Origin: Nitrosomonadales bacterium
GTDB taxonomy: Bacteria > Pseudomonadota > Gammaproteobacteria > Burkholderiales > Gallionellaceae
Length of the DNA stretch: 64,000 bases
Assembly (NCBI GenBank): GCA_016235045.1
Contig: JACRME010000008.1
Location: forward strand, 434,001-498,000
Direction: 5' to 3'
In this document: one piece after another, positions 23,102 through 50,582 of the stretch
How the letters are laid out: every line of letters begins with the position of its first letter
Numbering within the stretch: the first letter of the stretch is position 1
Program-made: the position numbers and the translations under genes
The notes under the pieces: model-generated
Told to the model about the DNA's origin: nothing
The model's input: only the letters and a program-made list of their open reading frames with translations
Databases searched by the model: none

Positions 23102-23225
23102 TTAGCCACAGAAGACACAGAGGACACAGAGAAATTGGATGAGCGGCCTCCCAAATTTGCGGGCTATTCGTCAACACGAAAAACCCCTTAACGTTCTCTG
23201 TGTGCTCTGTGATCTGTGTGGCTAA
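23102..23225. repeat. Long inverted repeat, family C copy 1
   Basis: Two arms of about 32 bp (23102-23133 and 23194-23225) rich in the CACAGAG motif (TTAGCCACAGAAGACACAGA on the left, its near-complement on the right) surround 60 bp of non-coding sequence. A second copy is at 33766-33904. It fills most of the 208-bp gap between dgkA and the glycosyltransferase. Confidence 0.85.
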
Positions 23226-31351: not shown

Positions 31352-33727
<2,376 letters not shown>

Positions 33728-33765: not shown

Positions 33766-33904
33766 AGCCACAGAGATCACAGAGTACACAGAGAGAGAAT
33801 CGGAACATCCAGCTATCGCGCTTTGAATAACGCGCTTCGTATCAATGATCCACTCTGCATGTTACAGCCGTTCTCTCTGTGATCTCTGTGTCCTCTGTGG
33901 CAAA
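33766..33904. repeat. Long inverted repeat, family C copy 2
   Basis: Arms of about 34 bp (33766-33799 and 33871-33904) with the same CACAGAG/CTCTGTG theme as copy 1 at 23102-23225 (AGCCACAGAGATCACAGAG on the left). It separates the end of the rnf operon from ppsA and is the only hairpin there, so it may also end the rnf transcript. Confidence 0.85.
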
Positions 33905-33912
33905 TTGCTTGT

Positions 33913-34098
33913 TCAGTGTTCCTCGCGCTTGCACTGGTCGGTGCCGCACTTGTGGTTACCGCAACCGCAGCCTTCGCCTTCCTCGCGCAATGCGCCGAAC
34001 TCGGGATGACGCGCGGCAAACCGGCGCGCGGCGGCGCGCACCAGCAGCCAACCCGCCAGCAATCCGAGCACGATCAGCACGGTCTGCAGGTAGATCAT
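33913..34098 (-). CDS. Small membrane-anchored cysteine-rich protein at the end of the rnf operon
   Basis: A 61-residue protein not assigned to a family. Residues 2-20 form one hydrophobic helix (IYLQTVLIVLGLLAGWLLV), followed by a basic stretch (RAAARRFAARH) and a tail with four cysteines and one His: CGCGNHKCGTDQC at 44-56. The ATG overlaps the rnfA stop (ATGA), so it is translated with the complex. The tail could hold a metal or Fe-S cluster, or help insert clusters into the Rnf subunits. Small Cys-tailed membrane proteins (for example FeoB-associated ones) have a comparable layout; a role with Rnf is inference from position. Confidence 0.75.
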   Translation of the reverse strand: MIYLQTVLIVLGLLAGWLLVRAAARRFAARHPEFGALREEGEGCGCGNHKCGTDQCKREEH

Positions 34099-34679
34099 TC
34101 CCCCGCCCCCAATCCGGCGAAGCCCATGAAGGTCAGCGACAGCAACCCCGCCAGGATCAGCGACAGCGCCGTGCCTTGCACCAGCGTCGGCACGTTGGCC
34201 AGTTGCAAACGCTCGCGCAGCGAGGCCATCAGCACCAGCGCCAGGGTGAAGCCGGCGCCGCCCGCAAGCGCAAACACCAACGATTGCGTGAAGTTGTATT
34301 CGCGCGCGGTCTGGAACAGCGCCACCGCCAGCACCGCGCAGTTGGTGGTGATCAGCGGAAGGAAGATGCCGAGCGCGCGAAACAGCGCGGGGCTGTATTT
34401 CTTCATCACCATCTCCACCAGTTGCACCGAGGAGGCGATCACCACGATGTAGGAGATCAGGCGCAGGAATTCGAGATGGAAAGTGTTCAGCAGCAGGTTC
34501 AGCGTATAGGCGCACACCGACGCGACCAGCATCACGAACGTGGTCGCCACGCCCATCGGGAACGCGGTGCCCAACCGGCTCGATACACCGAGGAAAGGGC
34601 ACAGCCCGAGGAACATGGCCAGCACGAAGTTGTTGGTCAGCAGCGTGCCGATGAATATCTGGCTCAGGGAATCAGTCAT
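34095..34679 (-). CDS. rnfA: Electron transport complex subunit RnfA
   Basis: Integral membrane subunit (194 residues, six helices) of the ion-pumping ferredoxin:NAD+ oxidoreductase. RnfA and RnfE together bind a membrane-embedded [2Fe-2S] cluster through conserved cysteines; here FLGLCPFLGVS (about Cys-27) and TTNCAVLAVAL (about Cys-111) supply them. The start used (MTDSLSQIF) has a GGAGG site at a good distance; an ATG two codons earlier (34685) lies too close to it. It overlaps rnfE by 8 bp. Confidence 0.95.
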   Translation of the reverse strand: MTDSLSQIFIGTLLTNNFVLAMFLGLCPFLGVSSRLGTAFPMGVATTFVMLVASVCAYTLNLLLNTFHLEFLRLISYIVVIASSVQLVEMVMKKYSPALFRALGIFLPLITTNCAVLAVALFQTAREYNFTQSLVFALAGGAGFTLALVLMASLRERLQLANVPTLVQGTALSLILAGLLSLTFMGFAGLGAGE

Positions 34680-35316
34680 GGGCATGCCCTCCTTCCGTTA
34701 CGGGCTTTTTGCGGAACAGGGCGAACAGCAGCAGCCAGCCGCCCAGCACGAAGAAACCACCCGGCGGCAGCACCATCACCACCCAGGGCTGGAAGTGTTC
34801 GCCGAACAGTGAAATACCGAACAGCTTGCCCGCACCGAGGATCTCGCGCGTGCCACCCAGCGCGAGCAGTCCGATGGCGAAACCGACGCCCATGCCCAGT
34901 GCGTTGACCACGGCTTTCAGCGGGGGGTTCTTGGAAGCGTGCGCTTCGGCGCGACCGAGGATGATGCAGTTCACCACGATCAACTGGATGAACGCGCCCA
35001 GCGCCTCGTACAGCGCCAGACTGGCCGCCTGGATCAGGTAATCGACCAGCGTCACGAAGGTGGCGATGATCACGATGTAGGTGGCGATGCGCACTTCCTT
35101 GGGCACCAGATGGCGGATCAGCGATACCAGCAGGCAGGAACTGACCAGCACGAACAGGGTGGCCACGCCCATCGACAGGCCGTTGACGGCGGACACGGTG
35201 ACTGCCAGCGTCGGGCACATGCCCAGCACCATCACGAACACCGGATTCTGGCGCCACACGCCTTCCATGAAAGTGTCGAAGGTGATTCCTTCGTCGGCTT
35301 GATTGGGCAGGCTCAT
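34672..35316 (-). CDS. rnfE: Electron transport complex subunit RnfE
   Basis: A 214-residue membrane subunit homologous to RnfA and inserted in opposite topology. Conserved cysteines appear in VLGMCPTLAVT and VVNCIILGRAEA. The MSLPNQADEG start overlaps the rnfG stop (ATGA). The C-terminus ends in a His/Asp-containing tail (EGGHAHD). Confidence 0.95.
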   Translation of the reverse strand: MSLPNQADEGITFDTFMEGVWRQNPVFVMVLGMCPTLAVTVSAVNGLSMGVATLFVLVSSCLLVSLIRHLVPKEVRIATYIVIIATFVTLVDYLIQAASLALYEALGAFIQLIVVNCIILGRAEAHASKNPPLKAVVNALGMGVGFAIGLLALGGTREILGAGKLFGISLFGEHFQPWVVMVLPPGGFFVLGGWLLLFALFRKKPVTEGGHAHD

Positions 35317-35984
35317 GATTTCAACTCCGCAATATGGGGTACCAGCAGCGGCAGCAGTTTCTGCGCGCTGTCGTTGATGCCGCGACCGACCGCCTTCGAG
35401 GTCACGGTGGCGCCGGCGATGGCGTCGATCTGCCAGGGGCTGGTCTTGCTGCCGTGCTTGACCACTTTCACCGCATTGGCCAGCGCCGTCATCTCGGCAT
35501 TCACGCGCACATCCAGCGCCTCGAAGTTCTTTAAAAAGGCCTTGTCGGTGATGATCTTGTCGCCGATGCCGGGCGTCTCGCGCATGGACACCACGCCGAT
35601 ACCGATGATGCACTGGCACTGCGCGTCGTAACCGTACAGTATGCGCACCACGTCGGCATAACCCTTGCCCGCCGCCTCGGCGGCGATGCCCTTGAGCGCA
35701 CCGGCCTGATCGTAGGCGGCATAGAACTTGATGCCGCCTTCCGGCATCGCGCCGGTCAATGGCTGGATGCCTGCCGGGGTCGCGGCATATTCCTTCACGC
35801 TCGCCGCACCGGGCAGCACCTTGAACACGGCGCGCTCGACCATGATGCGCTTGTTCTCGGCGATGGCGGCCTGCGTACTCTCGAAGGCGCCGACGATGAG
35901 CACGCCGCAGATGCTGGCGACCAGCACCATGGTGGCGATCATCTTGCCGCTGGGCGTCGTCTGGGGTGTGATGGGCTCGCTCAT
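35313..35984 (-). CDS. rnfG: Electron transport complex subunit RnfG
   Basis: A 223-residue periplasm-facing flavoprotein with one N-terminal membrane helix (about 17-35). The FMN is attached covalently to a Thr in the motif AGATVTSKAV near residue 193. An ETPGIGDKI loop near 138, typical of RnfG/NqrC, is also present. The start overlaps the rnfD stop by ATGA. Confidence 0.95.
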   Translation of the reverse strand: MSEPITPQTTPSGKMIATMVLVASICGVLIVGAFESTQAAIAENKRIMVERAVFKVLPGAASVKEYAATPAGIQPLTGAMPEGGIKFYAAYDQAGALKGIAAEAAGKGYADVVRILYGYDAQCQCIIGIGVVSMRETPGIGDKIITDKAFLKNFEALDVRVNAEMTALANAVKVVKHGSKTSPWQIDAIAGATVTSKAVGRGINDSAQKLLPLLVPHIAELKS

Positions 35985-37021
35985 TTGTTCTTCCCTTGCT
36001 GGCGAGTACCGAACACGCGCGGCTGCGTATACAGGTCAATAAACGGGGTCAGCGCGTTGCCGAGCAGGATGGCGTACATGACACCTTCCGTCAGTCCGCC
36101 GAAATAACGGATCATCACCGTCACCACGCCGATCACCGCGCCGTAGATCCACACGCCCAGCGGCGTCACCGGCGAAGTCGCCATGTCGGTCGCCATGTAC
36201 ACCGCGCCCAGCATCAGCCCGCCGGACAGCAGCACGAAGGTCGGCGCGGGATAGTGGGTCGGGTCGTACAGCTGGAACAGCCAGGCCGTGAGCGCGGCCG
36301 AGGCCAGCACCGCCACGGGAATGCGCCAGTCCATGAACTTGCGCGCGGCCAGATACAGGCCGCACACCAGGATGAGGATGGCCGAGGTTTCGCCTGCGGA
36401 AGCCGTCACAGCACCCGTCAGCAGATCATGCGTCGACGCAATCACGTTCTCGAATTTCCAGCGCGCCAGCGGCGTTGCGCCGGTGAACGCATCGACGGCC
36501 TGCAGCTTGACCCATTCGACGACATCGGGCGGCATCATCAGCGGCGCGGTCAGCGTGGTCGGCACAAACTCGCTGAAGCGCTGCGCCGAGAACGCAGGTA
36601 CCCAGGTCGTGATCGCGACCGGGAACGCGGCCTGCACGAAGGCGCGGCCGATCAATGCCGGGTTGAACACGTTGAAGCCCAGTCCGCCGAACAGCGCCTT
36701 GCCGATGGCTATCGCGACGAAACCGGCGACGACGCCCATCCACAGCGGGAAGGACGGCGGCAGCGTGAGCGCCAGCAGCACACCGGTGATGGTCGCGCTC
36801 CAATCGCCCAGCGTGCTGGCCTGCCCGGCGGAGCGGTTGAGCAAACGCTCGGTGAGCAGGCAGGTCGCCGTAATGGTGAGCAGCAAGGCCAGCGCGGACA
36901 GGCCGTACTGCCAGACCGAGAAGGCGCAGACCGGCAGCAACGACAGCACCACATGCTTCATGATGGTGGGGACATTGCGTTCGCTGATTTGATGCGGTGA
37001 GGTACGGAGTTCCATGCTCAT
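35981..37021 (-). CDS. rnfD: Electron transport complex subunit RnfD
   Basis: A 346-residue integral membrane subunit, homologous to NqrB, with about ten helices. It carries covalent FMN on Thr in DAFTGATPLA (about residue 180) and the GFNVFNPALIGRAF motif near 114. Two nearby ATGs (37021 and 37015) are both possible; the first overlaps the rnfC stop as ATGA. Confidence 0.95.
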   Translation of the reverse strand: MSMELRTSPHQISERNVPTIMKHVVLSLLPVCAFSVWQYGLSALALLLTITATCLLTERLLNRSAGQASTLGDWSATITGVLLALTLPPSFPLWMGVVAGFVAIAIGKALFGGLGFNVFNPALIGRAFVQAAFPVAITTWVPAFSAQRFSEFVPTTLTAPLMMPPDVVEWVKLQAVDAFTGATPLARWKFENVIASTHDLLTGAVTASAGETSAILILVCGLYLAARKFMDWRIPVAVLASAALTAWLFQLYDPTHYPAPTFVLLSGGLMLGAVYMATDMATSPVTPLGVWIYGAVIGVVTVMIRYFGGLTEGVMYAILLGNALTPFIDLYTQPRVFGTRQQGKNK

Positions 37022-38418
37022 GCTGCGGTCTTTTCTCTATTAACAGCTTTGGCGATGCGGAACTGCTGCACCAGCGGAATATGCGACGGGCAGACATAGC
37101 TGCAGCAGCCGCACTCGAAACAGCGGTCCAGGTTGTAGCGCTCGGCCATCTCCTCATATTCGCGCTTGGCCGCCAGCAATCCGAGTTGCGAGGGATTGAG
37201 GAACTTGGGGCACACGTTGAGGCACTCGCCGCACTTGATGCAGGCGTAGACCTGCGGCGTCACCTCCGGCAGTTGCGCTTCGGCGAAGGCGAGCACGCCC
37301 GAAGTCCCTTTGGTGACCGGCACATCCAGCGACGAGATGGTCATGCCCATCATCGGGCCGCCGAGGATGATTTCTTTCGCGCTGCTGCGCGCACCGACCT
37401 GTTCCAGCAGGAAGCGCAACGGCGTGCCGATGGGCACGATGTAATTGCCGGGGCGTTCCACCGCCGGACCGGCCACGGTCAGCACGCGCTCGACCATGCC
37501 TTCCCCTGCGGGCAGCAAACGGCCGAGATAGGCCAGCGTCATCACGTTGTTCACCAGCACGCCGATGGCGGCGGGACGCTGACCGGCGGGAATCTCGCGA
37601 CCGAGCAGCGCATAGATGATGGTGTCTTCCGCGCCCTGCGGATATTTGGTTTCCAGCGCCTGCACCGTGATCGTGCCATCGGCAGGCAATGCGGCCCGGA
37701 TCGCGGCGATGGCGTCCGGCTTGTTGTCCTCGACGCCGATGATGGTGCGCGGCGCGCCGCTGGCCTTCATCGCATAGCGGATACCGCGAATCAAATCCTG
37801 CGTGCGCTCCACCATGATGCGATGGTCGCAGGTGAGGAAGGGTTCGCATTCCGCGCCGTTCACCACCATGGTGTCTATCTTCGTCTCCGGCGGCACGCTG
37901 AGCTTGACATGGGCGGGGAAGGTCGCGCCCCCCAGGCCGGAGATGCCGGTGTCCTGGATGGCGGCCAGCAATGCCTTCTTGTCCATGGCGTCGACATCGC
38001 GCGGTTCGCGCACCCGCACTTCCTGGCCGTCGGCCTGGTACACGCGGAGGGTGATGGCATCCACCATCTTGCCGTTGGCGGAGGGCATCAGGCCGATGGC
38101 CTCCACCACGCCTGTCGCCGGTGCGTGCACCGGCAGCGAGACGAAACCGTCCGCCGTGGCGATGACCTGGCCGCGCAGCACTTCCTGGCCGACGTTCACG
38201 CAACACACGGCGGGTTTGCCGATATGCTGCGACAGCGGCACGACCAGACGCGGCGCAAAAGGCAGGCGCTTGATCGGCAGGCTGCCAGTCTCCTTGTGAT
38301 AGGCCGGGTGGATGCCGTGCTCGAACGTGGCCTTCTTGGAAAAGAGGGAAGCGAACAGCGAGAACGGGAACATCCATCCCGCGCCCCTGGAGCGATCTTT
38401 CCCCGGGGGGAGACTCAT
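37018..38418 (-). CDS. rnfC: Electron transport complex subunit RnfC
   Basis: Peripheral subunit (about 466 residues) that binds NADH/FMN and exchanges electrons with RnfB. Motifs: FEHGIHPAYHK near the N-terminus, GLGGATFPAHVKL (flavin/NADH site), NGAECEPFLTCD, and two [4Fe-4S] motifs near the C-terminus, CIKCGECLNVCP and CFECGCCSYVCP. The start is uncertain: the family usually begins like MFPFSLFASLF (ATG at 38373), while ATG 38418 and GTG 38478 (2 nt after the nifJ stop) are also in frame. The chosen ATG keeps an AGAAGG stretch upstream. Confidence 0.9.
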   Translation of the reverse strand: MSLPPGKDRSRGAGWMFPFSLFASLFSKKATFEHGIHPAYHKETGSLPIKRLPFAPRLVVPLSQHIGKPAVCCVNVGQEVLRGQVIATADGFVSLPVHAPATGVVEAIGLMPSANGKMVDAITLRVYQADGQEVRVREPRDVDAMDKKALLAAIQDTGISGLGGATFPAHVKLSVPPETKIDTMVVNGAECEPFLTCDHRIMVERTQDLIRGIRYAMKASGAPRTIIGVEDNKPDAIAAIRAALPADGTITVQALETKYPQGAEDTIIYALLGREIPAGQRPAAIGVLVNNVMTLAYLGRLLPAGEGMVERVLTVAGPAVERPGNYIVPIGTPLRFLLEQVGARSSAKEIILGGPMMGMTISSLDVPVTKGTSGVLAFAEAQLPEVTPQVYACIKCGECLNVCPKFLNPSQLGLLAAKREYEEMAERYNLDRCFECGCCSYVCPSHIPLVQQFRIAKAVNREKTAA

Positions 38419-38480
38419 GCCCTTCTCGCTTTCATCTTCATCTTTCACCAGCAAGTCGTTGACCTTCACGCCGCTCACCT

Positions 38481-41400
38481 TCAGTTGAACTTGGCCGCAC
38501 GCGCCTTCAGTTTTTCCAGGTTCGGCTCGTTCGCATTCCACGGCGTGCCGGGATGGATGACGCCGGCCGTGCACTTCTCCGCCGCCTTGACGATGTCGAG
38601 GAAGGTGCCCGCAGTCGGGTTCAGCACCACGGCCTTCTTCTGGTCGTTATAGCCGAAGATTTTGGCGTTGATGTTCATGCATTCGTCGCACGCAGTGCAT
38701 TCCGGCGTGTCGATCCAGGCGGCTTCGAAACCGCCAGCCGCGGCCGGTGCCGCACCCGCAGCAGGCTGGGCCGCAACCGGCGCACCGCCCAGACCGGACG
38801 ACAGTTGCTGGATCAGCTCCTGGCGCACGCGGTTGGCGATGGCCGTCTCGTCGGCTTGCGCGCCACCGGCGCTGGTCAAATCCTTGAGTTGGTGCCAGAA
38901 CTGCAACCGCTCTTCGCAGGAACGTACCATCTCCACCGAGGTCAGCACGCGCATCAGACGCTGTTTCTTGTCCACCGCCCAGATGAAGGGGAATTTGCCT
39001 TCGCGCTCGTCCTCGGACAGCTTGAGGAAATCGCCCAGCAGCACTTGCTCGTCGTTCCAGGTTTCCGGCGGCGCCTTCTTGAACTGCTTGGCGAAGCGGC
39101 CTTCGCCCAGGGCGAAGTCGGCGAACGTCATCGGCAGCGACATCGACTGCTTGTCGCCCTTCTCGTCCACATAGGCGAGATCGTAGCTCGGCCAGTCGGC
39201 CTCCAGCGCCGGGTTGCCTTCCAGCGTGGCGCTTGCGGAGAAGGTCACGCCCAGGTCCGGGTTGTAGCGGAACAGCGGGAAGGCGCGCGCCTCCGTCGCC
39301 ATCTTGCTGCGCGCCACCGCGCTGTCGTCGCCCACGCCGTGTTCCGGCGGGCATACCGCATAGGCGTTGAACAATGCCGGACGGCGAGTGTTGAGGCCGT
39401 CGATGAAGCTTTCCAGCATGTGTGTGATATTGGCCTGCGACACCTGCGCCACGAACGCGGTGCGGTGCGCCATGCCGATCACGCTGATCTCCTTGCGCTT
39501 CTCGCTCTTGCCGTGCTGGCTGGCGCCGTACGGCGACATGTCGGCCACCTGGCCGATGAAGCCGGAGGTGCAGGCCTGGCCGCCGGTGTTGGAATACACC
39601 TGCGTGTCGACGATCAGGATCTTGACCGGCTTGCCCGACATCAATGCGCGCGACAGGTTCTGGAAGCCGATGTCGAACATCGCGCCGTCGCCGCCCATGG
39701 CCAGCACCGGCGGACACAGGTGCCACTCTTCATCGGTGAGCTGTTCCCAGTTGAAGCGCGCGAAGAACGCGTCGTTCTCGGCGGGCTCGTAGCCGCCCGC
39801 CAGTTCCATCTCGACCTGGCGCACGGTCTTGAAACCTTCCACCATCGCGCACATGTGGCCTTCGAAGATACCCATCGCCACCGAGGGCGAATCCTGGAAC
39901 AGGTGCGACGTCCACGGGAACGGATAGGGGTTGAACGGATAGGTCGATGCCCACACCGAGGTGCAACCGGTGGAGTTGATGATGCCCATCTCGGCGCGGC
40001 CGTTCTTGCTCGGGCCTTCCATGTAGCGCCAGCGCAGGTCTTTGAGTTTTTCCAGCATCTGGCTCACGCGGCGCAGCCATTGCGGGTCGATGGGCTGGCC
40101 GGGGTGCTTCTGCAAAATGCTCTCGGACAGGTTGGCCAGCGTCAGGTCGCGCCCGCTGTGCGCCTGCACCGCCTGCATCAGCGCCTGGGTGTCGGTGAGG
40201 TCGACGCTGGAGCTGAGTTTCAGGCGCACATGGTTCTCCAGGTCGGAGATCATCTTGTCCAGCTTGGCCAGGAATTTTTTCACGCGCGGCTGCATCAGCG
40301 CGGTGACGGTGCTGGTGAACAGGTGGATGGTGGACTTTTCGCCGCAGCCCAGGCAGGCGCCGTCGCCGCTGACCATGGACAGGTAGTTGTGCTTGTCCAG
40401 CAGCAGCGTCTCCAGCGCGCCAACCTTCTCGTCGAGGTCGTCGATGCGGCTGAACTGCGCCGGCGTGGTCGGCAGGTCGAGCCAGAAATTCCAGTCGTCG
40501 CGCAACGTCTGGATGCTTTCCTTGGTCTGGGTGACCATCTCCAGGGCGTTGTCGGCGCAGACTTCCACGCACAGCGCGCAGCCTTTGCAGGTGTAGGGGT
40601 TGACGGTGATGGAGAACAGGCCGCCAGCGCCCTTTTCCTTCTTCTCTTTTTGCGTCCAGTAGGGCTTGGTGGTGGCGAACTTGAAGCTGCCGATCTCGGC
40701 GCGCAACAGGTTCAATTCGGCTTCCAGCTTGCTGCGGTCTTCGCCCTGCGTCGCATCTTCCGCGAACGCCTCGGTGATGGCGTTGGCCAGCAGCGCGCGC
40801 ACGTCGAGGCCGTCCTTGTCCAGCGCGCCGCGCAGTTTTTTGTCGATGGCGCGGCTGAACTTGCGCAGGAAGCGCGTCGGGCGCCCGCCGATCTCGATCT
40901 TCTGGATGGCGGTGTTGAGTACGTCGGCAGAGGTGGAGACCAGGCCGGGAATGGCGCTGTCCGGACACACGGTATAGCACTCGCCGCAGGCGGTGCAGTT
41001 CTCGGCCTTCCATTCCGGATGCTCGAAACGCACGCCGGTCATGTCGCGGTACACGCCGGTCACGGCCGGGATGATGGACAAGCCCATGAACGGATCGACC
41101 AGGTTGTCCGAACCCTGCCCCTTCATATAGAAGCTGCCGGTCTGTTCCCAGAAACGGTGCACATCGGAGATGCCGCCGTCGCCTTCGGGCAGGCGCTTGA
41201 GCATGACGGGCAGCGATGGCGCGGCCTTGGCCGCCGCCTGGGTGCGCTGACCAACCTTCATCAGTTCCGGATTGATCTCGTGCAACTCTTCATAGCCGCG
41301 ACGCACCACGCGCAGGTTGTCCTCGACCACGCGCTTGCCCTTCTTGCCGAACTTGTCTTCGAGCTGCTTCTCGATGGCGGTGAACAGAGTCTCTTCGCTC

Positions 41401-43397
41401 AACCCGGCACGCTCCTTCACGTCGGAAGCACGGAAGAACGCGCCCTGGAAGGCGTTGCCCTGCATGCGCAACTGCAGGTCGACGTTGCTGGATTCCTCGC
41501 GCGCGATCTTGAACGCGTCGAGATAGAACACGCGCAGCTTCTTGTCCGCGATGTATTTCTGGATGTGCATCGGGAACGAAGCCCACAGCGCCTCGGCGCT
41601 GTCCAGATTGCTCTGGATGATGAACACGCCGCCCTGGCTCAGGCCGTCCACGGCATTGGTGTGCCCGAACACTTGCGGGTCCGGCGACATCACCACGTCG
41701 ACGTTGGTGTACTCGCAGTTGATGCGGATGGGTTCCGGCGCGGCGGACAGATAATAAGTCGTCGGCTGGCCCTTCTTTTCCGAACCATATTTCGGGTTGG
41801 CCTTGATGTCCCAGCCCAGCAGTTCGAACAGCGTCATCGCCAGGTTCTTGCCGGTGGTCACCATGCCCCAGCCGCCGATGGAGTGCATGCGCACCGCGAT
41901 GGCGTTCTTGGGCATCAGGTTGGGGTTCTCAGAACCGCGCAGCGCCATCTCCTTGATGCGCGGATAAGCCTCTTTCAGTTTCTGCTGGTGGATCTCCTGT
42001 TTCGGCGTGGCCGACTCGTCGCGCAGGAAGTCCACCGACAGGTAATAGAACTTGCGGTGCGCGGCGCCCGGCAGCATGTTCTCGACGGCGGCGATCAGGC
42101 CTTCCGGCTGCAGGTCGCGCGAGCCCAGGCCGTAACAGCCGGAATACAGCGACGGCATGTCCTTGGCGCTTTCATAGGTCGCGTAATCGGCATAGGAATT
42201 CTCGCGCGCGTTCTCGACGCATTTGGTGATCGTGGAACGCACTTCGCGCATCAGCGGCAGATCTTCGGACAGCGGCTGGTCGGTGCGCTCCAGCACCGCC
42301 ACGCCTTTCTTGCCCTTGAGCACCTTGCCCAGCAGGTCGCCGGGGAAGGGACGGAACATGGTGAGATTGATCACGCCCACCTTGATCTTGCGGTTCTCGC
42401 GCAGCCAGTCGGCGACGGCCTCCGCCTGCACCGTCATGCTGCCCATGCCAAGGATGATGTACTCGGCGTCATCGCAGCGATAGGCGGCGACGCGGTTATA
42501 GCGGCGTCCGGTCAGCGCATGGAACTCGTCCATGCACTGGTCGGCCAGCGCGGGAATATGGGCAAAGAAATACGGCCGCTGCGCCGCCACGGCCTGCATG
42601 TAGGCATCCTGATTGGCGACGATGCCGGTCTGCATGGGGTTGTCCACGTCCCAGATGGACGGGATGCGGCGGCGCTTGGGGCCGTACAGCATCTTCTGCG
42701 CCGGGGTGGGCGTGTCGATGATGTCGTCGGCGCAACCCAGGTATTCGGCGACCAGTTCGCGTTCCGGCACCATCATTGGCTCGATCAGGTGCGTGGTGAG
42801 GAAACCGTCCTGCCCGACCATGGCCGGGGTGAGCGCCAGTTCGGCGGTCTTGCGCGCGATCATGTTGAGGTCGGCGGCTTCCTGCGCATTCTTGGCGAAC
42901 ACCTGGATGAAGCCGGTATCGTCGGCACAGTGGTAGTCGTCATGCGCGCAGTGCACGTTGAGCGAGGCCTTGGTGATGGCGCGGCAGCCGAGGTTCAGCA
43001 CATAAGTCAAACGCTTGCCGACGGCGGCATACAGCGATTCGTGCATGAAGGCCAGGCCCTGCGCCGAGGTGAAATTCACCGCGCGCATGCCGGTCATGGA
43101 CATGCCGGCGGTGACGCCCGCAGCGGCGTGTTCGGATTCCGGCTCGACGAAGATCAGCGGCTGGCCTGCGGTATTGAGGTGACCCTTGGCGACTTCTTCC
43201 GCCCAGTATTCGCCCATCTGCGTGGACGGCGTGATCGGATAGGCGCCCGCACCATGCGAGGCTTCGCGTTCCACCATGATCACGGCGGTGTTGCCGTCGA
43301 TGGCGTCGCGCGTGCCGGGGTACTTGTACTGGGTGTGACCGCCCTTGGAACTGGTGTCGGCACCGGTCAATTTGAATTGCTTGAGTTTGTTCAGCAT
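38481..43397 (-). CDS. nifJ: Giant pyruvate:ferredoxin (flavodoxin) oxidoreductase with an extra C-terminal ferredoxin domain
   Basis: A 1,638-residue single-chain enzyme interconverting pyruvate + CoA and acetyl-CoA + CO2 with ferredoxin. Order: pyruvate-binding domain I (about 20-270, REASHGAGAYPITPSTQMG), domain II/III (to about 490), gamma domain (about 497-690, with the EKR motif KYGSEKKGQPTTYYLS), two [4Fe-4S] motifs (CTACGECYTVCP near 800, CKGCALCVEVC near 935), and the TPP domain (ACLGCGEKST near 1014, GDGAMFDIGF near 1232, YSNTGGQ). The usual NifJ is about 1,170-1,200 residues. The extra length comes from insertions in the TPP part plus a C-terminal extension: an Ala/Pro linker and a mono-cluster ferredoxin-like domain with Cys 1567, 1570, 1573 and 1609. 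The start at MLNKLKQFKL has an AAGGAAT site. It sits between rnfB and rnfC. Confidence 0.93.
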   Translation of the reverse strand: MLNKLKQFKLTGADTSSKGGHTQYKYPGTRDAIDGNTAVIMVEREASHGAGAYPITPSTQMGEYWAEEVAKGHLNTAGQPLIFVEPESEHAAAGVTAGMSMTGMRAVNFTSAQGLAFMHESLYAAVGKRLTYVLNLGCRAITKASLNVHCAHDDYHCADDTGFIQVFAKNAQEAADLNMIARKTAELALTPAMVGQDGFLTTHLIEPMMVPERELVAEYLGCADDIIDTPTPAQKMLYGPKRRRIPSIWDVDNPMQTGIVANQDAYMQAVAAQRPYFFAHIPALADQCMDEFHALTGRRYNRVAAYRCDDAEYIILGMGSMTVQAEAVADWLRENRKIKVGVINLTMFRPFPGDLLGKVLKGKKGVAVLERTDQPLSEDLPLMREVRSTITKCVENARENSYADYATYESAKDMPSLYSGCYGLGSRDLQPEGLIAAVENMLPGAAHRKFYYLSVDFLRDESATPKQEIHQQKLKEAYPRIKEMALRGSENPNLMPKNAIAVRMHSIGGWGMVTTGKNLAMTLFELLGWDIKANPKYGSEKKGQPTTYYLSAAPEPIRINCEYTNVDVVMSPDPQVFGHTNAVDGLSQGGVFIIQSNLDSAEALWASFPMHIQKYIADKKLRVFYLDAFKIAREESSNVDLQLRMQGNAFQGAFFRASDVKERAGLSEETLFTAIEKQLEDKFGKKGKRVVEDNLRVVRRGYEELHEINPELMKVGQRTQAAAKAAPSLPVMLKRLPEGDGGISDVHRFWEQTGSFYMKGQGSDNLVDPFMGLSIIPAVTGVYRDMTGVRFEHPEWKAENCTACGECYTVCPDSAIPGLVSTSADVLNTAIQKIEIGGRPTRFLRKFSRAIDKKLRGALDKDGLDVRALLANAITEAFAEDATQGEDRSKLEAELNLLRAEIGSFKFATTKPYWTQKEKKEKGAGGLFSITVNPYTCKGCALCVEVCADNALEMVTQTKESIQTLRDDWNFWLDLPTTPAQFSRIDDLDEKVGALETLLLDKHNYLSMVSGDGACLGCGEKSTIHLFTSTVTALMQPRVKKFLAKLDKMISDLENHVRLKLSSSVDLTDTQALMQAVQAHSGRDLTLANLSESILQKHPGQPIDPQWLRRVSQMLEKLKDLRWRYMEGPSKNGRAEMGIINSTGCTSVWASTYPFNPYPFPWTSHLFQDSPSVAMGIFEGHMCAMVEGFKTVRQVEMELAGGYEPAENDAFFARFNWEQLTDEEWHLCPPVLAMGGDGAMFDIGFQNLSRALMSGKPVKILIVDTQVYSNTGGQACTSGFIGQVADMSPYGASQHGKSEKRKEISVIGMAHRTAFVAQVSQANITHMLESFIDGLNTRRPALFNAYAVCPPEHGVGDDSAVARSKMATEARAFPLFRYNPDLGVTFSASATLEGNPALEADWPSYDLAYVDEKGDKQSMSLPMTFADFALGEGRFAKQFKKAPPETWNDEQVLLGDFLKLSEDEREGKFPFIWAVDKKQRLMRVLTSVEMVRSCEERLQFWHQLKDLTSAGGAQADETAIANRVRQELIQQLSSGLGGAPVAAQPAAGAAPAAAGGFEAAWIDTPECTACDECMNINAKIFGYNDQKKAVVLNPTAGTFLDIVKAAEKCTAGVIHPGTPWNANEPNLEKLKARAAKFN

Positions 43398-43410
43398 GGT
43401 GGGATTCCTT

Positions 43411-44292
43411 CTAGACTTCTGCCGGAGCAGGTAAGGGTTCAATACGGATGATTTTCTTTGCGGCTTTTCCTTTGACGATGCGGTCGCCCTCCAACCACAC
43501 TATCGCGCCCGTGGGGCAGCGTTCGATGGCTTTGCGATCCGCACTGTTGTTCTTTTCGTAATCGATCACGGCCAGATTGCGCACCAGACTGATCAGTCCG
43601 GGGGCGCCATCGACCACGCAGCGTCCGCACGCCGTGCAGGCCACTTCGCAGGCGGCCTCGGCGGCATCGCCGTCGTCTTCGTTGCGGCAGGCCAGCCACA
43701 GCTTGTGCGACACGCCGTGGATGGAGAACAGGTTCTTCGGGCAGATGTCGACGCAGTCGCCGCAGGCCGTGCATTTGGCGCCGTCCACCACCGGCAGGCC
43801 GTTCTTGTCCATGGTGATGGCATCGAAGTCGCACACGTCGGCGCAGTCGCCCAGTCCCAGGCAGCCCCAAGCGCAGCTCTTGCCGCCGCCCCCGGCCACG
43901 GTCGCGGCGCGGCAGGAAGAAAGTCCGGCGTATTTTGCGCGCAGGGTGGCAACATGCTTGCCGCCGGCGCAGGCCAACCGCGCCACGCGCTTTTCGACAT
44001 CGCCCAGGGCGACGCCCAGCAGTGCGGCGATATTCTTGTTTTGATCGGGAGAATTGACAGTGCAGCGGCCGGGCTCGATCTGGCCCGCCACGGCCTGCTC
44101 GGCGAAATTATGGCAGCCCGCCGTACCGCAGGCGCCGCAATTGGAATGGGGGAGGAGTTCTTCGACCTGCTCGATGCGGGGATCTTCAAAGACGTAGAGC
44201 TTCTTGCTCGCGAGCGCCAGCACAAGCGCAAGCAGGCCGCCCAAGACGGCCATGAAAGCTCCTGTGATCAATACGCTGTACAAAATGCTCAT
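43411..44292 (-). CDS. rnfB: Electron transport complex subunit RnfB, long multi-cluster form
   Basis: A 293-residue ferredoxin-like subunit that accepts electrons from, or delivers them to, soluble ferredoxin. It has one N-terminal membrane helix (about 8-30), the RnfB-specific cluster CGACGTAGC...C (Cys 52, 55, 60, 77), and then many more cysteines: 108, 127, 140, 144, 150, 154, 174, 177, 180, 184, 202, 215, 219, 222, 225 and 259. Typical proteobacterial RnfB is about 190 residues with three clusters; this one resembles the longer forms of anaerobes. The ATG has a GGGGAG site. It is the first gene of the operon, 13 nt before nifJ. Confidence 0.93.
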   Translation of the reverse strand: MSILYSVLITGAFMAVLGGLLALVLALASKKLYVFEDPRIEQVEELLPHSNCGACGTAGCHNFAEQAVAGQIEPGRCTVNSPDQNKNIAALLGVALGDVEKRVARLACAGGKHVATLRAKYAGLSSCRAATVAGGGGKSCAWGCLGLGDCADVCDFDAITMDKNGLPVVDGAKCTACGDCVDICPKNLFSIHGVSHKLWLACRNEDDGDAAEAACEVACTACGRCVVDGAPGLISLVRNLAVIDYEKNNSADRKAIERCPTGAIVWLEGDRIVKGKAAKKIIRIEPLPAPAEV

Positions 44293-44505: not shown

Positions 44506-44536
44506 TTTGCCTGATTTGGAACGCTTGGAGGATGGA

Positions 44537-45484
44537 ATGAACACTGAAAAACAGAGTTATTACAAGAACAATCGTCTTAAACAAATGAGGGCTTTTTGCG
44601 AGGTCGTCCACACCGGCAGCATTACCTTGGCAGCACAGAAATTGTTCCTGAGCCAACCTTCCGTTACTTTACAAATCCAGGCGATGGAGCGTGAACTGGG
44701 CGTCACCGTATTCGAACGGCGCGGGCCTGTACTCAAGCTTACCCCGGATGGGGAAACATTGTACGCCTTAGCGAAGCCGTTGGTGGAAGGAATCGACGGT
44801 TTGCAGGAAAATTTTGCCGCACAGCACGGCAAACTGGACTCGGGCGAGTTGAATATCTGTGCAGGAGAATCAACTATTCTGTACATCCTGCCGGAGCCGG
44901 TGCGCCGTTTCGTGACTGCGCATCCGCGCATCCAGCTCAAGATCCACAACGAAACCGGACGCGACGGCTTGAAAATGCTGCGCGCCGACGAGATCGACCT
45001 CGTGGTCGGTTCCATGCTGGACGTGCCCGATGACATCACCTACCAACCGGTGGTGACCTACGACCCCGTGCTCATCGCCCCGCTCGGCCATCCGCTGGCG
45101 CACCACCCCAATGTCACGCTCGAAGAGATCAGCCAGTACGGCCTGATCCTGCCGCCGCGCCACCTCTCCACCTGGCGCATGGTCAAATACGTGTTCCAGC
45201 AGCACAACCTGACTTTCTCGGTGACGCTGGAAGCGGGCGGCTGGGAAATCATCAAAAAATACGTGGAACTGGGCATGGGCATTTCCATCGTCACCGACAT
45301 CTGCCTCACCGGCTGCGAGAAACTGGTGCGAATCCCGCTCACCCAGTATTTCCCGCAACGCGGTTATGGACTGGTTTTGCGCAAGGGCCGTTTCCTGTCG
45401 CCACAGGCGCGGCGCTTCGTGGAAATCCTGTACGAGGTTTACGGCATGGCGTCCGTGCCCGCCGAACTCAACGCTCAAGATTGA
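44537..45484 (+). CDS. LysR-family transcriptional regulator (CysB/CbbR-like)
   Basis: A 315-residue regulator with an N-terminal winged helix-turn-helix (about 12-70, FCEVVHTGSITLAAQKLFLSQPSVTLQIQAMERELG) and a periplasmic-binding-protein-like effector domain (about 98-300). It is divergent from rnfB, so it probably controls the rnf-nifJ operon and itself; the effector may be a C2/C3 metabolite. The ATG with a GGAGG site is preferred over an upstream in-frame TTG. Its last codons overlap a fragment of the ppsR 3' end (see the duplication at 45470-45545). A partial second copy of its 3' part lies at 46314-46451. Confidence 0.9.
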   Translation: MNTEKQSYYKNNRLKQMRAFCEVVHTGSITLAAQKLFLSQPSVTLQIQAMERELGVTVFERRGPVLKLTPDGETLYALAKPLVEGIDGLQENFAAQHGKLDSGELNICAGESTILYILPEPVRRFVTAHPRIQLKIHNETGRDGLKMLRADEIDLVVGSMLDVPDDITYQPVVTYDPVLIAPLGHPLAHHPNVTLEEISQYGLILPPRHLSTWRMVKYVFQQHNLTFSVTLEAGGWEIIKKYVELGMGISIVTDICLTGCEKLVRIPLTQYFPQRGYGLVLRKGRFLSPQARRFVEILYEVYGMASVPAELNAQD

Positions 45485-46547: not shown

Positions 46548-47363
46548 TTAACGCTCAAGATTGAGCGCCTGCATCAACTGCACAGCCAGTTCCTCGATGG
46601 AGCGCGAGGTGGTGTCGAACCATTTGATGCCCTCGCGCCGCATCAGTTTTTCCGCTGCCGCGACTTCATAGCGGCAGTTTTCCAATGACGCATATTTGCT
46701 GTTAGGACGGCGCTCGGTGCGGATGCGTTGCAATTGTTCGGGGTTGATGGTCAGGCCGTACAGCTTGTCGCGAAAAGGCTGCAATCGCGACGGTAATTGG
46801 TCGCGCTCGAAGTCTTCCGGGATCAGCGGGTAGTTGGCGGCCTTCAACGAGAATTGCAGCGAGAGGTACAGACTGGTCGGCGTCTTGCCGCTGCGCGACA
46901 CGCCGACGAGGATGATATCGGCACTCTTCAGGTCGGCATCCGATGCACCGTCGTCGTGTGCCAGCGCGAAATTCACCGCCGCGATGCGCGAACTGTATTC
47001 GGGATTGGACTGGCTGTGCGAGCGCCCCACGGCGCGCGAGTAGCGGCAACCCAACTCCTGCTCCAGCGGCACGACGAACGCGTCGAACAAGTCGATGAAC
47101 AGCGCATCGGCCCGGTGCAGCAAGGCGCTGTATTCGGTATTGGTCAGCGTCATGATGACGATGGGGCGCGCGCCTTCGCGCTGGCCGACTTCGTTGATGC
47201 GCGCCACGCAATCCCTGATCTTTTCCTCGCTGTCCAGGAAGGGAAAGCGCAAATGGCGGAACTCGATGCCTTCGAACTGGGCGAGCAAGCCGTGGCCCAG
47301 GGTTTCCGAGGTGATGCCGGTGCCGTCCGACACGTAGATGACGGTGCGTTTAGGGATAGTCAT
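46548..47363 (-). CDS. ppsR: PEP synthase regulatory protein (bifunctional kinase/pyrophosphorylase)
   Basis: A 271-residue DUF299-family enzyme that inactivates PEP synthase by ADP-dependent threonine phosphorylation and reactivates it by phosphorolysis. The P-loop-like GVSRSGKTPTSLYL (about 153-166) and the N-terminal YVSDGTGITSETLG motif are typical. It pairs functionally with ppsA at 31352-33727. Its 3' end is duplicated at 45470-45545, beside the toxin-antitoxin insertion, but the gene itself is complete. Confidence 0.96.
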   Translation of the reverse strand: MTIPKRTVIYVSDGTGITSETLGHGLLAQFEGIEFRHLRFPFLDSEEKIRDCVARINEVGQREGARPIVIMTLTNTEYSALLHRADALFIDLFDAFVVPLEQELGCRYSRAVGRSHSQSNPEYSSRIAAVNFALAHDDGASDADLKSADIILVGVSRSGKTPTSLYLSLQFSLKAANYPLIPEDFERDQLPSRLQPFRDKLYGLTINPEQLQRIRTERRPNSKYASLENCRYEVAAAEKLMRREGIKWFDTTSRSIEELAVQLMQALNLER

Positions 47364-48494: not shown

Positions 48495-50582
48495 TTATGC
48501 CGCCTTGGTGTCGATATCGCCTTCCAGGTTCGGGTAACGAACGTGGTCGACCAACTCCTGTATTTCCTTGCTCGGCGCTGCAGTCAGCAGACTGCCCACG
48601 ATCACGCCGATGAAACCGGCTGTCATGCCGAACAGACCTCCGGAGATCGGGTTGATGTCCCACCACAGCGGCGCATTGATCCCGAAGAACGGATAGGTCA
48701 TGTACATGTAGTACATGCAGGTACCGAGTCCGCCCGCCATGCCGAGAATCGCGCCCCACTTGTTGGCCCGCTTCCAGAACACGCCCAGGGCGAGTGCCGG
48801 GAAGAACGCGGATGCCGCCAGCGAGAACGCCGCACCGACCAGGAACAGGATGTCGCCCGGCTTCAGCGAAGTCACCCAGGCTGCGAACACGGCCACCACC
48901 AGCAACAGACCCTTGGAAATGGCCAGACGACGGGTCGTCGGCGCATGCGGGTCGATCATCTTGTAGTAGACGTCGTGCGACAACGCGTTGGCGATGGTCA
49001 ACAGCAGACCGTCGGCAGTGGACAGCGCGGCAGCCAGACCGCCCGCAGCCACCAGACCGGTGATCACATACGGCAGACCCGCGATTTCCGGCGTCGCCAG
49101 CACGATCAGGTCACCACCGATGGTGATCTCGGCCAATTGCACGATACCGTCCTTGTTGATGTCGGTAACGCTCATCAGACTCTTGTCCACAGCAGCCCAG
49201 GACGCGACCCAACTTGGCAGTTCGGAGAAACTCGATCCGACCAGCAAGGTGTAAACGTCAAACTTGGCCAATACCGCCAGCGCAGGCGCGGTGAAGTAGA
49301 GCAGGAAGATGAAGAACAGCGACCAGAACACCGACTTGCGCGCTTCCTTCACCGACGGCGTGGTGTAGTAACGCATCAGGATGTGCGGCAATGCGGCCGT
49401 ACCCACCATCAGGCACAGTACCAGTGCCAGGAAGTTCTTGCGCTTCTTGTCGATGGCCGCCTGATCCTTGCCGGCGAACGGCTCGGCGTGCGAAGCGATC
49501 GGAGCAGTCTTGGCTTTGGCACCGGCTGCTGCTTTCGTCCATGCCGCTTTCGCTGCTGCCGCATCGGCCGGGAAGTCGGTCACCGCCTTGTCGGCTGCGG
49601 CCACGGCCGCCGGATCGGCATCCTTGGTCGCCTTCAGCGTGGCTGCGGCTGTCTCCAGCTTGGCCTTCTCTTCTGCCAGATAGGTCGCGCCACCGGTTTC
49701 CAGTGCCTTCAGCTTGGCTTCAGAGGCTTCCTGACGCATCTTGAAGATCGCGCGCACTTCGGCTTCCTTGGCGCCGTCCGGTGTGGTCGGATCGTTCAGC
49801 ACGACTTCGCGTGCTGTGACTTTTTCCAACACATAACCGTAAGCGATCTGCGGAACCGGGTTGCCGGTATGTTTAACCGACAGCCACACCACCGGGATCA
49901 TGTACGCCACGATCAGGATGATGTACTGCGCCACTTGCGTCCAAGTAACGGCACGCATGCCGCCGAGGAAGGAACACACCAGGATGCCGCCCAGACCGGC
50001 GAACACACCGATGCCGAACTCCAGACCGGTGAAACGGCTGGTGATCAGGCCCACGCCGTAGATCTGCGCGATCACATAAGTGAAGGAGCACAGGATCGCC
50101 GCGAACACGCCGATGGAACGGGGGATGTTGCCGCCGTAACGGGCGCCGAGGAAGTCGGGGATGGTGAACTGGCCGAACTTGCGCAGGTACGGTGCCAGCA
50201 GCAGCGCCACCAGGCAGTAACCGCCGGTCCAACCCAACACGAAGGCGAGGCCGTCATAGCCGGACAGGTACAAGGTACCGGCCATACCGATGAAGGACGC
50301 AGCCGACATCCAGTCCGCGCCGGTTGCCATGCCGTTGAACAGCGCCGGGACGCGGCGTCCGGCCACGTAGTATTCCGACACGTCCGCGGTGCGGGACATC
50401 ACGCCGATACCTGCATACAGCAGCACGGTCGCAGCCAGGAAGATGTAGCCGAGGATCTTGTTCGGCACGCCCATCTGTTCGAGGATGGCGACGATGATGA
50501 TGAAAGCGACGAATCCTCCGGTATAGAAGGAATAGTAGCGCTTAAGCGAAGCGAAAAATTGCGATTGGGATTGGGTAGCCAT
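48495..50582 (-). CDS. Large sodium:solute symporter (VC_2705-type, acetate/carboxylate transporter family)
   Basis: A 695-residue SSS-family transporter related to ActP. The LeuT-fold core is clear (YYVAGRRVPALFNGMATGADWMS and the AALSTADGLLLTIANALSHDV signature). It is larger than ActP (about 550) because of an Ala/Lys-rich hydrophilic, probably coiled-coil insert at about 260-375, and an external loop with an EF-hand-like motif DINKDGIVQLAE at 474-485. The small DUF4212 subunit gene overlaps by one base (TAATG), as usual for this subfamily. The substrate is probably acetate or another short carboxylate. It is divergent from a two-component system that likely regulates it. Confidence 0.92.
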   Translation of the reverse strand: MATQSQSQFFASLKRYYSFYTGGFVAFIIIVAILEQMGVPNKILGYIFLAATVLLYAGIGVMSRTADVSEYYVAGRRVPALFNGMATGADWMSAASFIGMAGTLYLSGYDGLAFVLGWTGGYCLVALLLAPYLRKFGQFTIPDFLGARYGGNIPRSIGVFAAILCSFTYVIAQIYGVGLITSRFTGLEFGIGVFAGLGGILVCSFLGGMRAVTWTQVAQYIILIVAYMIPVVWLSVKHTGNPVPQIAYGYVLEKVTAREVVLNDPTTPDGAKEAEVRAIFKMRQEASEAKLKALETGGATYLAEEKAKLETAAATLKATKDADPAAVAAADKAVTDFPADAAAAKAAWTKAAAGAKAKTAPIASHAEPFAGKDQAAIDKKRKNFLALVLCLMVGTAALPHILMRYYTTPSVKEARKSVFWSLFFIFLLYFTAPALAVLAKFDVYTLLVGSSFSELPSWVASWAAVDKSLMSVTDINKDGIVQLAEITIGGDLIVLATPEIAGLPYVITGLVAAGGLAAALSTADGLLLTIANALSHDVYYKMIDPHAPTTRRLAISKGLLLVVAVFAAWVTSLKPGDILFLVGAAFSLAASAFFPALALGVFWKRANKWGAILGMAGGLGTCMYYMYMTYPFFGINAPLWWDINPISGGLFGMTAGFIGVIVGSLLTAAPSKEIQELVDHVRYPNLEGDIDTKAA

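Follow-up and report, generated by a model that had tools for sequence, protein, structure and literature searches.

What is a gene for pyruvate:ferredoxin oxidoreductase (PFOR) doing inside a complete rnf operon? The question is raised by a 64,000-nucleotide stretch of DNA (hereafter the window) from a Nitrosomonadales bacterium of the Gallionellaceae (assembly GCA_016235045.1, contig JACRME010000008.1, positions 434,001–498,000), part of a 3.15-Mb assembly that is 95% complete. Read along the minus strand from 44292 to 33913, the gene order is rnfB–nifJ–rnfC–rnfD–rnfG–rnfE–rnfA, followed by a gene for a 61-residue Cys-rich protein (Table 1), with all six subunits RnfABCDGE in the one cluster. 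A preliminary description of this DNA had proposed the same order with short or ATGA-overlapping junctions, the longest (about 62 bp) between nifJ and rnfC. Coordinates and Pfam domains bear out the order, and reading the sequence gives the junctions as described: 13 bp between rnfB and nifJ, 62 bp between nifJ and rnfC (with the ATG at 38418 taken for rnfC), ATGA overlaps at rnfC/rnfD, rnfD/rnfG, rnfG/rnfE and rnfA/61-residue gene, and an rnfE/rnfA overlap of 8 or 14 bp according to the rnfA start chosen. The locus is a real, conserved variant of Rnf with a dedicated, ferredoxin-tailed PFOR. A full-text literature search (few subscription journals, no bioRxiv preprints) returned no recognised account of rnfB–nifJ–rnfC or of a tailed PFOR, and as far as searched the variant is undescribed.

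The encoded NifJ belongs to the PFOR superfamily by its POR_N, PFOR_II, POR, ferredoxin and thiamine diphosphate (TPP) domains, its cluster ligands and its GDG...N motif. The preliminary description overlooked that it is a divergent long form with a ferredoxin tail. Against TIGR02176 the protein scores 428.9 bits (cutoff 911.35), outside the NifJ equivalog, and canonical NifJs of the host's order match it at 26–33% identity over local segments. Compared with five canonical NifJs, it has one insert of ~79 residues between the ferredoxin clusters, a second of ~71 after the proximal-cluster CxxC and ahead of the TPP motif, and ~180 extra residues at the carboxy terminus. Capture of an ordinary NifJ by an rnf operon is therefore rejected: by identity, cutoff and inserts the protein is a separate long family. 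Relatives share 54 to ~91% identity with the window NifJ (median 68%). Across 92 aligned sequences (the window and 91 full-length loci, the cut-off copies in L063, L064 and L109 dropped), the 16 Cys that make up four [4Fe-4S] sites are invariant in 92/92, as is the GDG...N motif. We take C1015, C1018, C1145 and C1349 to be the proximal cluster, from the Desulfovibrio africanus enzyme. Pyruvate would be the substrate, to judge from the neighbouring phosphoenolpyruvate synthase gene (ppsA) and the closest solved enzymes. A 1199-residue structure model of NifJ (mean predicted local distance difference test score, pLDDT, 60) was set aside. Elsewhere in the phylum, genus g464 of family f251 has a 1681–1698-residue PFOR relative (L202–L209) with ~35–40% local identity to the window NifJ; the short flanks examined hold no rnf match.

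The carboxy-terminal extension ends in a single-cluster ferredoxin domain, whose four Cys (Table 1) are kept in 92/92, preceded by a linker with a median Ala plus Pro fraction of 0.41 (0.16 for the whole protein, 92 sequences) and a length that runs from 18 to >46 residues across the family. A model of the last 259 residues of NifJ places a confident, separate tail domain after a disordered stretch (lowest block pLDDT 33), and the best Foldseek match of the tail is ferredoxin I of D. africanus (template modelling score by target 0.79, probability 1.00). In other 2-oxoacid dehydrogenases, lipoyl domains swing on linkers of this Ala/Pro-rich kind; by analogy, the NifJ arm may bear a swinging ferredoxin.

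Does the arrangement recur? The long form occurs in 15/300 genomes of the host's order, host included (the G265 copy is cut by a contig end). The preliminary description had called for a search of the order for rnfB–nifJ–rnfC, and 13/13 long-form loci whose surroundings were examined have rnfB in front and rnfC behind. Among the best 80 of 486 relatives from a search of the GTDB species collection, rnfB lies directly upstream of nifJ in 80/80 and rnfC downstream in 74/80, the remaining six having contig ends ≤169 bases from the nifJ match. A class sample of 369 genomes contains the long form in 21 (host included; in pieces in 6), and 19 of the 20 non-host loci have rnfB and/or rnfC adjoining. 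Pooling L033–L045, L174–L181 and 80 named loci (101 in all) and removing near-copies leaves 94 distinct loci. Here rnfB is upstream of the long nifJ in 93/94, rnfC downstream in 82/82 with at least 1.5 kb of sequence, and rnfA downstream in 74/74 with at least 6.5 kb. Because rnfB precedes the same long nifJ in 93/94 distinct loci, the arrangement is not chance; a recent insertion in one species is rejected, as the arrangement recurs across relatives. In a sample of 398 genomes of the phylum a long-form score is reached by three only, all of the host's order and the host among them; the next best score (586 bits) is below the long form. As a control, six canonical NifJ loci (L046–L050 and L052), a small set taken from the best canonical matches, have no rnf gene adjoining in 6/6; a 25% rnfC match in L052 lies inside the NifJ frame, over the ferredoxin part of the query. 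The operon is found in Gamma-/Betaproteobacteria, with named carriers including Rhodoferax, Rubrivivax, Rhodocyclus, Ectothiorhodospira, Thiothrix and Sedimenticola. The gene order and the functional link of PFOR with Rnf, first suggested from the window, are supported far beyond it, and the operon is not special to iron oxidisers, the setting then envisaged.

A sister line alters the enzyme and keeps the operon. Four genomes (L162–L165) have the same rnf operon with a NifJ relative of 1511–1564 residues (frame starts uncertain) that retains the two ferredoxin clusters, whereas its TPP motif, proximal CxxC and tail are lost; their RnfB is missing the same terminal cluster as the host's (below). 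L163 encodes separate 2-oxoacid oxidoreductase alpha and beta subunits, both slightly under curated cutoffs, and an 836-residue protein with the ferredoxin tail at its end. L162 and L164 have an alpha-like match and a tailed protein (811–840 residues across L162–L164); in L165 the tail match is in a frame separate from the 750-residue frame, and two genes with succinyl-CoA synthetase domains lie between the giant protein and rnfC. Frames of the size of beta (317–323 residues) are present in L162, L164 and L165, its identity being scanned in L163 alone. On the evidence of these four loci, the sister PFOR body may have become a bridge for electrons, linking Rnf to a separate enzyme. The same tail is found on proteins of 710–749 residues (L172:7245–9401, L173:6842–9091 and L051:14363–16495), with no rnf match in the stretches examined; that of L172 adjoins a 2-oxoacid:acceptor oxidoreductase alpha subunit and an FAD/NAD oxidoreductase. 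Split long-form relatives (L166–L170 and the 3985-base piece L171) likewise have no rnf match in the stretches examined.

The Rnf complex is itself distinct. RnfC scores well over its curated cutoff (496.5 bits, TIGR01945 cutoff 245.95) and RnfC, RnfD and RnfA are similar to solved Rnf complexes. RnfB falls below curated cutoffs (TIGR01944, 62.8 of 68.7; NF005503, 195.5 of 252), yet is still clearly homologous to solved RnfB, scoring 183 bits with Acetobacterium, 172 with Clostridium tetanomorphum and 43.5 with Azotobacter. Of its Cys, 20 are each conserved in 94 or 95 of the 95 sequences; it does not have the four Cys of the second cluster in the C. tetanomorphum terminal domain, leaving one terminal [4Fe-4S] motif fewer. 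The predicted activity of the complex is that of an ion-translocating ferredoxin:NAD+ oxidoreductase. The Rnf of A. woodii and C. tetanomorphum, with the order rnfCDGEAB, shares this RnfB type and the C–D–G–E–A order, whereas here rnfB stands in front and nifJ is inserted. Each of the 14 carriers searched encodes additional RnfC over cutoff, of the kind known as Rnf1 (nif-linked) and Rnf2/Rsx of proteobacteria (rnfABCDGE). These have the same subunits in another order and no nifJ: 17/17 loci examined read A–B–C–D–E, 12 of them with a detected rnfG between D and E and 5 with none, and their RnfB is only 23–29% identical to the nifJ-linked RnfB. In a tree of 54 RnfC the 17 other copies split from the nifJ-linked and sister types at 100/100; the nifJ-linked rows alone hold together at 94/84. 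The nifJ-linked Rnf is the host's third, beside two further sets of another lineage that had been overlooked.

Which way would such a machine run? The ppsA beside the operon is the only ppsA match in the host assembly (G000), and ppsA lies behind rnfA in 17/72 loci with room for it: in relatives close to the host, in L068 and in several Gammaproteobacteria, L124–L127 among them. Pyruvate dehydrogenase (PDH) E1 and 2-oxoglutarate dehydrogenase (OGDH) E1 are each present in 14/14 carriers, host included, so that the PFOR should not be needed for pyruvate oxidation in air. Full isocitrate lyase was found in 0/7 genomes of the host's family and family f43 (in the host, one 55.6-bit partial family match in a 338-residue frame and no two-part match), and crotonyl-CoA reductase over cutoff in 0/14 carriers (host best 72 bits, cutoff 378.55). 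The host, at 95% completeness, thus has neither a full isocitrate lyase nor a crotonyl-CoA reductase over cutoff; 7/14 carriers do not share this pattern. In extracts of a review, several purple bacteria, including Rubrivivax gelatinosus, are described as without isocitrate lyase activity, and the NifJ of Rhodospirillum rubrum as able to serve acetyl-CoA uptake (PMC8307300); R. gelatinosus is a carrier of the operon (L117). The earlier proposal that the ion gradient could push electrons from NADH to ferredoxin and so drive pyruvate formation fits this gene content (ppsA, PDH/OGDH, no full isocitrate lyase, no crotonyl-CoA reductase); it leaves the direction unfixed, and G154, of the host's genus, has the operon without ppsA. 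For the host we give the edge to synthesis of pyruvate, a direction that is unproven. The host also has a second 2-oxoacid:ferredoxin oxidoreductase of three genes, alpha, beta and gamma (L199:2811–5823; C29 of its own genome).

We favour, with a probability of about one half, a dedicated Rnf with its own PFOR and a tethered ferredoxin shuttle, working mostly towards pyruvate in this host. Electrons would pass between NADH (at RnfC), the ion-translocating membrane subunits, RnfB and the iron–sulfur clusters of the long NifJ. On the flexible tail of NifJ, the ferredoxin domain would act as a tethered shuttle to RnfB, replacing free ferredoxin or working beside it. The net reaction would be acetyl-CoA + CO2 + NADH + ion gradient <-> pyruvate + CoA + NAD+, and in the Gallionellaceae host it would run mostly towards pyruvate, feeding PpsA next door. 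Functional coupling of PFOR and Rnf is likely, and a physical NifJ–Rnf complex plausible. A bolder version is somewhat less probable and is offered tentatively: one membrane-bound Rnf–NifJ complex would be an ion-translocating pyruvate:NAD+ oxidoreductase, its Ala/Pro arm swinging ferredoxin between PFOR and RnfB with no free ferredoxin, and the giant PFOR of the sister line would be a non-catalytic electron scaffold for a separate 2-oxoacid:ferredoxin oxidoreductase.

Several observations weigh against the favoured scheme. The gene order has exceptions: in G546 (L176, inside the 94 distinct loci) rnfB is behind rnfA, giving nifJ–C–D–G–E–A–B, and in G335 (outside the 94), where nifJ is in two pieces on different contigs, rnfB is beside the N-terminal piece and no rnfC lies within 10 kb after the C-terminal nifJ piece on the other contig. 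The Foldseek match of the tail has only E = 0.06 for the whole query, none reaching E 0.001. Genes of a cluster with an NAD-binding, reductase-like domain are present in 21 loci, mostly behind rnfA, and would suit exchange with the wider redox pool (examples, both with PF00175 on scanning, are L113:19635–20504 and L099:19877–20734). No ppsA adjoins in 55/72 loci, and ppsA is absent from 5/14 carriers, G154 among them. Since isocitrate lyase is present in the other 7/14 carriers and ppsA is lacking in 5/14, acetate assimilation via PpsA cannot be the general role. RuBisCO is present in 12/14 carriers, and RuBisCO hosts can make pyruvate from Calvin-cycle products.

A serious rival, though less probable than the favoured scheme, keeps the coupled machine and reverses its main direction: the PFOR would oxidize pyruvate from glycogen or organic acids and Rnf would pass the electrons to NAD+ with ion pumping, yielding more energy than PDH, above all at low oxygen or in fermentation. 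In anaerobes the known forward reaction of Rnf passes electrons from ferredoxin to NAD+, and the RnfB here is of the anaerobe type. The second 2-oxoacid oxidoreductase of the sister operon in L163 and the succinyl-CoA synthetase-like genes of L165 suit an oxidative branch as well, and extracts of a Gallionellaceae genome paper assign PFOR to fermentation and Rnf to nitrogen fixation (PMC10734482). Set against oxidation are PDH E1 in 14/14, ppsA beside the operon in distant lineages, some with ppsR, which points to pyruvate use for sugar synthesis, and a host with neither full isocitrate lyase nor crotonyl-CoA reductase over cutoff. Co-transcription alone, in which PFOR and Rnf would share soluble ferredoxin without contact and the tail would be an oxygen-protection or storage element, is improbable. 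Operons often join enzymes with a common carrier, and a C-terminal extension of the D. africanus PFOR is linked to oxygen tolerance; in Sedimenticola (L115) a Redoxin/AhpC-TSA family gene of 168 residues lies between nifJ and rnfC, with similar frames in L114 and L116 (L115 scanned). However, the tail forms an entire ferredoxin domain whose ligands are invariant, RnfB is without its last terminal cluster, and other proteins, including some encoded in rnf operons, end in the same tail.

Both NifJ and Rnf take their names from nitrogen fixation, and the operon might supply reduced ferredoxin to nitrogenase. The host and seven others of the 14 carrier genomes have nifH over cutoff, and extracts of a paper on Rhodoferax antarcticus propose that its PFOR serves as NifJ (PMC5374385). 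In the other six carriers, however, no match qualifies as nifH, and the eight that have it possess three RnfC each against two each in the six without. Another RnfC lies 10–23 kb from nifH in 4/8 (G000, G024, G071 and G067; 17 kb in the host), the other four having no RnfC on the same contig as nifH. The 17 extra RnfC fall into two branches of the tree, one made up of the six sampled from nifH carriers and one of the remaining eleven, each supported at 100/99. Because six carriers are without nifH over cutoff and the eight with it have one more RnfC, nitrogen fixation is rejected as the general role, and we regard a nitrogenase supply as very improbable.

Around the operon, neighbour clustering gave mostly presumed shadow frames, and only the LysR, ppsA, ppsR and PF00175 clusters were kept. 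A LysR relative is divergent and upstream of the operon, and a relative of the 61-residue protein is behind rnfA, each in part of the relatives' loci; the 61-residue protein itself has no family match. A frame of ~216 residues lies between rnfC and rnfD in L066 (16485–17135) and L080, with no Pfam match (L066 scanned), and rnfC–rnfD gaps of similar size occur in L065, L067, L072, L077 and L084. Promoter-like (1 against 2.1 in shuffles) and terminator-like sites (10 against 8.9) are not in excess in the operon region. A palindromic intergenic repeat of CACAGAG units has two copies in the window (33768–33900 and 23106–23221; 8 pattern matches against 0.02 expected), and the copy between the 61-residue gene and ppsA may separate the two transcripts.

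Table 1. Features of the operon and its surroundings (positions in the window; residues numbered in the long NifJ)
Feature	Position	Strand	Description
ppsA, phosphoenolpyruvate synthase	31352..33727	(-)	TIGR01418, 1146.9 bits; next gene after the operon, 185 bp away
61-aa protein	33913..34098	(-)	Hydrophobic N-terminus and Cys-rich tail, read from sequence
rnfA	34095..34685	(-)	Start 34685 or 34679; Rnf-Nqr family, PF02508; nearest is RnfA of solved Rnf complexes
rnfE	34672..35316	(-)	Rnf-Nqr family, PF02508
rnfG	35313..35984	(-)	FMN_bind domain, PF04205
rnfD	35981..37021	(-)	NQR2_RnfD_RnfE, PF03116, 348.9 bits
rnfC	37018..38418	(-)	ATG at 38418, start uncertain, frame open upstream; Pfam RnfC_N, Complex1_51K, SLBB; TIGR01945
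Long nifJ (pyruvate:ferredoxin oxidoreductase family)	38481..43397	(-)	1638 aa; Pfam POR_N, PFOR_II, POR, TPP_enzyme_C
C-terminal tethered single-cluster ferredoxin domain (putative tether)	38484..38729	(-)	Residues ~1557-1638; C1567, C1570, C1573, C1609; PF13370
Ala/Pro-rich flexible linker	38730..38789	(-)	Residues ~1537-1556; low pLDDT
GDG of thiamine diphosphate motif	39684..39692	(-)	Residues 1236-1238, partner N1270; 92/92, lost in four sister proteins
Two [4Fe-4S] motifs of PFOR ferredoxin domain and insert between	40557..40997	(-)	Residues 801-811 and 937-947; 8 Cys in 92/92
rnfB	43411..44292	(-)	Anaerobe-type RnfB, 293 aa; Pfam FeS and Fer4
LysR-type regulator	44507..45484	(+)	Start uncertain; upstream of rnfB, divergent
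ppsR, regulator of phosphoenolpyruvate synthase	46548..47363	(-)	NF049928, 386.5 bits (cutoff 350)
Sodium:solute symporter	48495..50582		Listed as 50582-48495; further upstream than rnfB

Set beside known systems, the long NifJ shares with canonical NifJ/PFOR (D. africanus, Moorella thermoacetica; TIGR02176) the domain order, the two-cluster ferredoxin domain, the proximal cluster motifs and the TPP motif, and differs in its two inserts, linker and ferredoxin tail and in lying, at almost every locus examined, within an rnf operon. The pyruvate:NADP+ oxidoreductase of Euglena and Cryptosporidium joins a PFOR core to a C-terminal flavoprotein reductase for NAD(P)H coupling; it likewise has an extra C-terminal electron module, but here that module is a ferredoxin and RnfC would hold the NAD site. 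The Rnf of the Riftia symbiont, clustered with genes of the reductive tricarboxylic acid cycle, is likewise near ferredoxin-dependent 2-oxoacid enzymes, although extracts of the account describe separate korABCD and Hdr-Flx genes and mention no PFOR inside the rnf operon (PMC11636981).

If PFOR and Rnf are one unit, aerobic or microaerophilic proteobacteria could make pyruvate from acetyl-CoA and CO2 by means of NADH and the membrane gradient. This carboxylation is usually thought to need strongly reduced free ferredoxin; the unit, if real, would offer a testable account of how such low potentials could be reached in purple bacteria, in sulfur oxidisers and perhaps in iron oxidisers. It would also be a natural template for a carboxylase with electrical coupling. 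The operon may also bear on genome papers such as that on the Gallionellaceae (PMC10734482). Taken as a whole, the locus suggests a single dedicated machine by which the cell would use the ion gradient across its membrane to drive pyruvate chemistry, or to harvest it.

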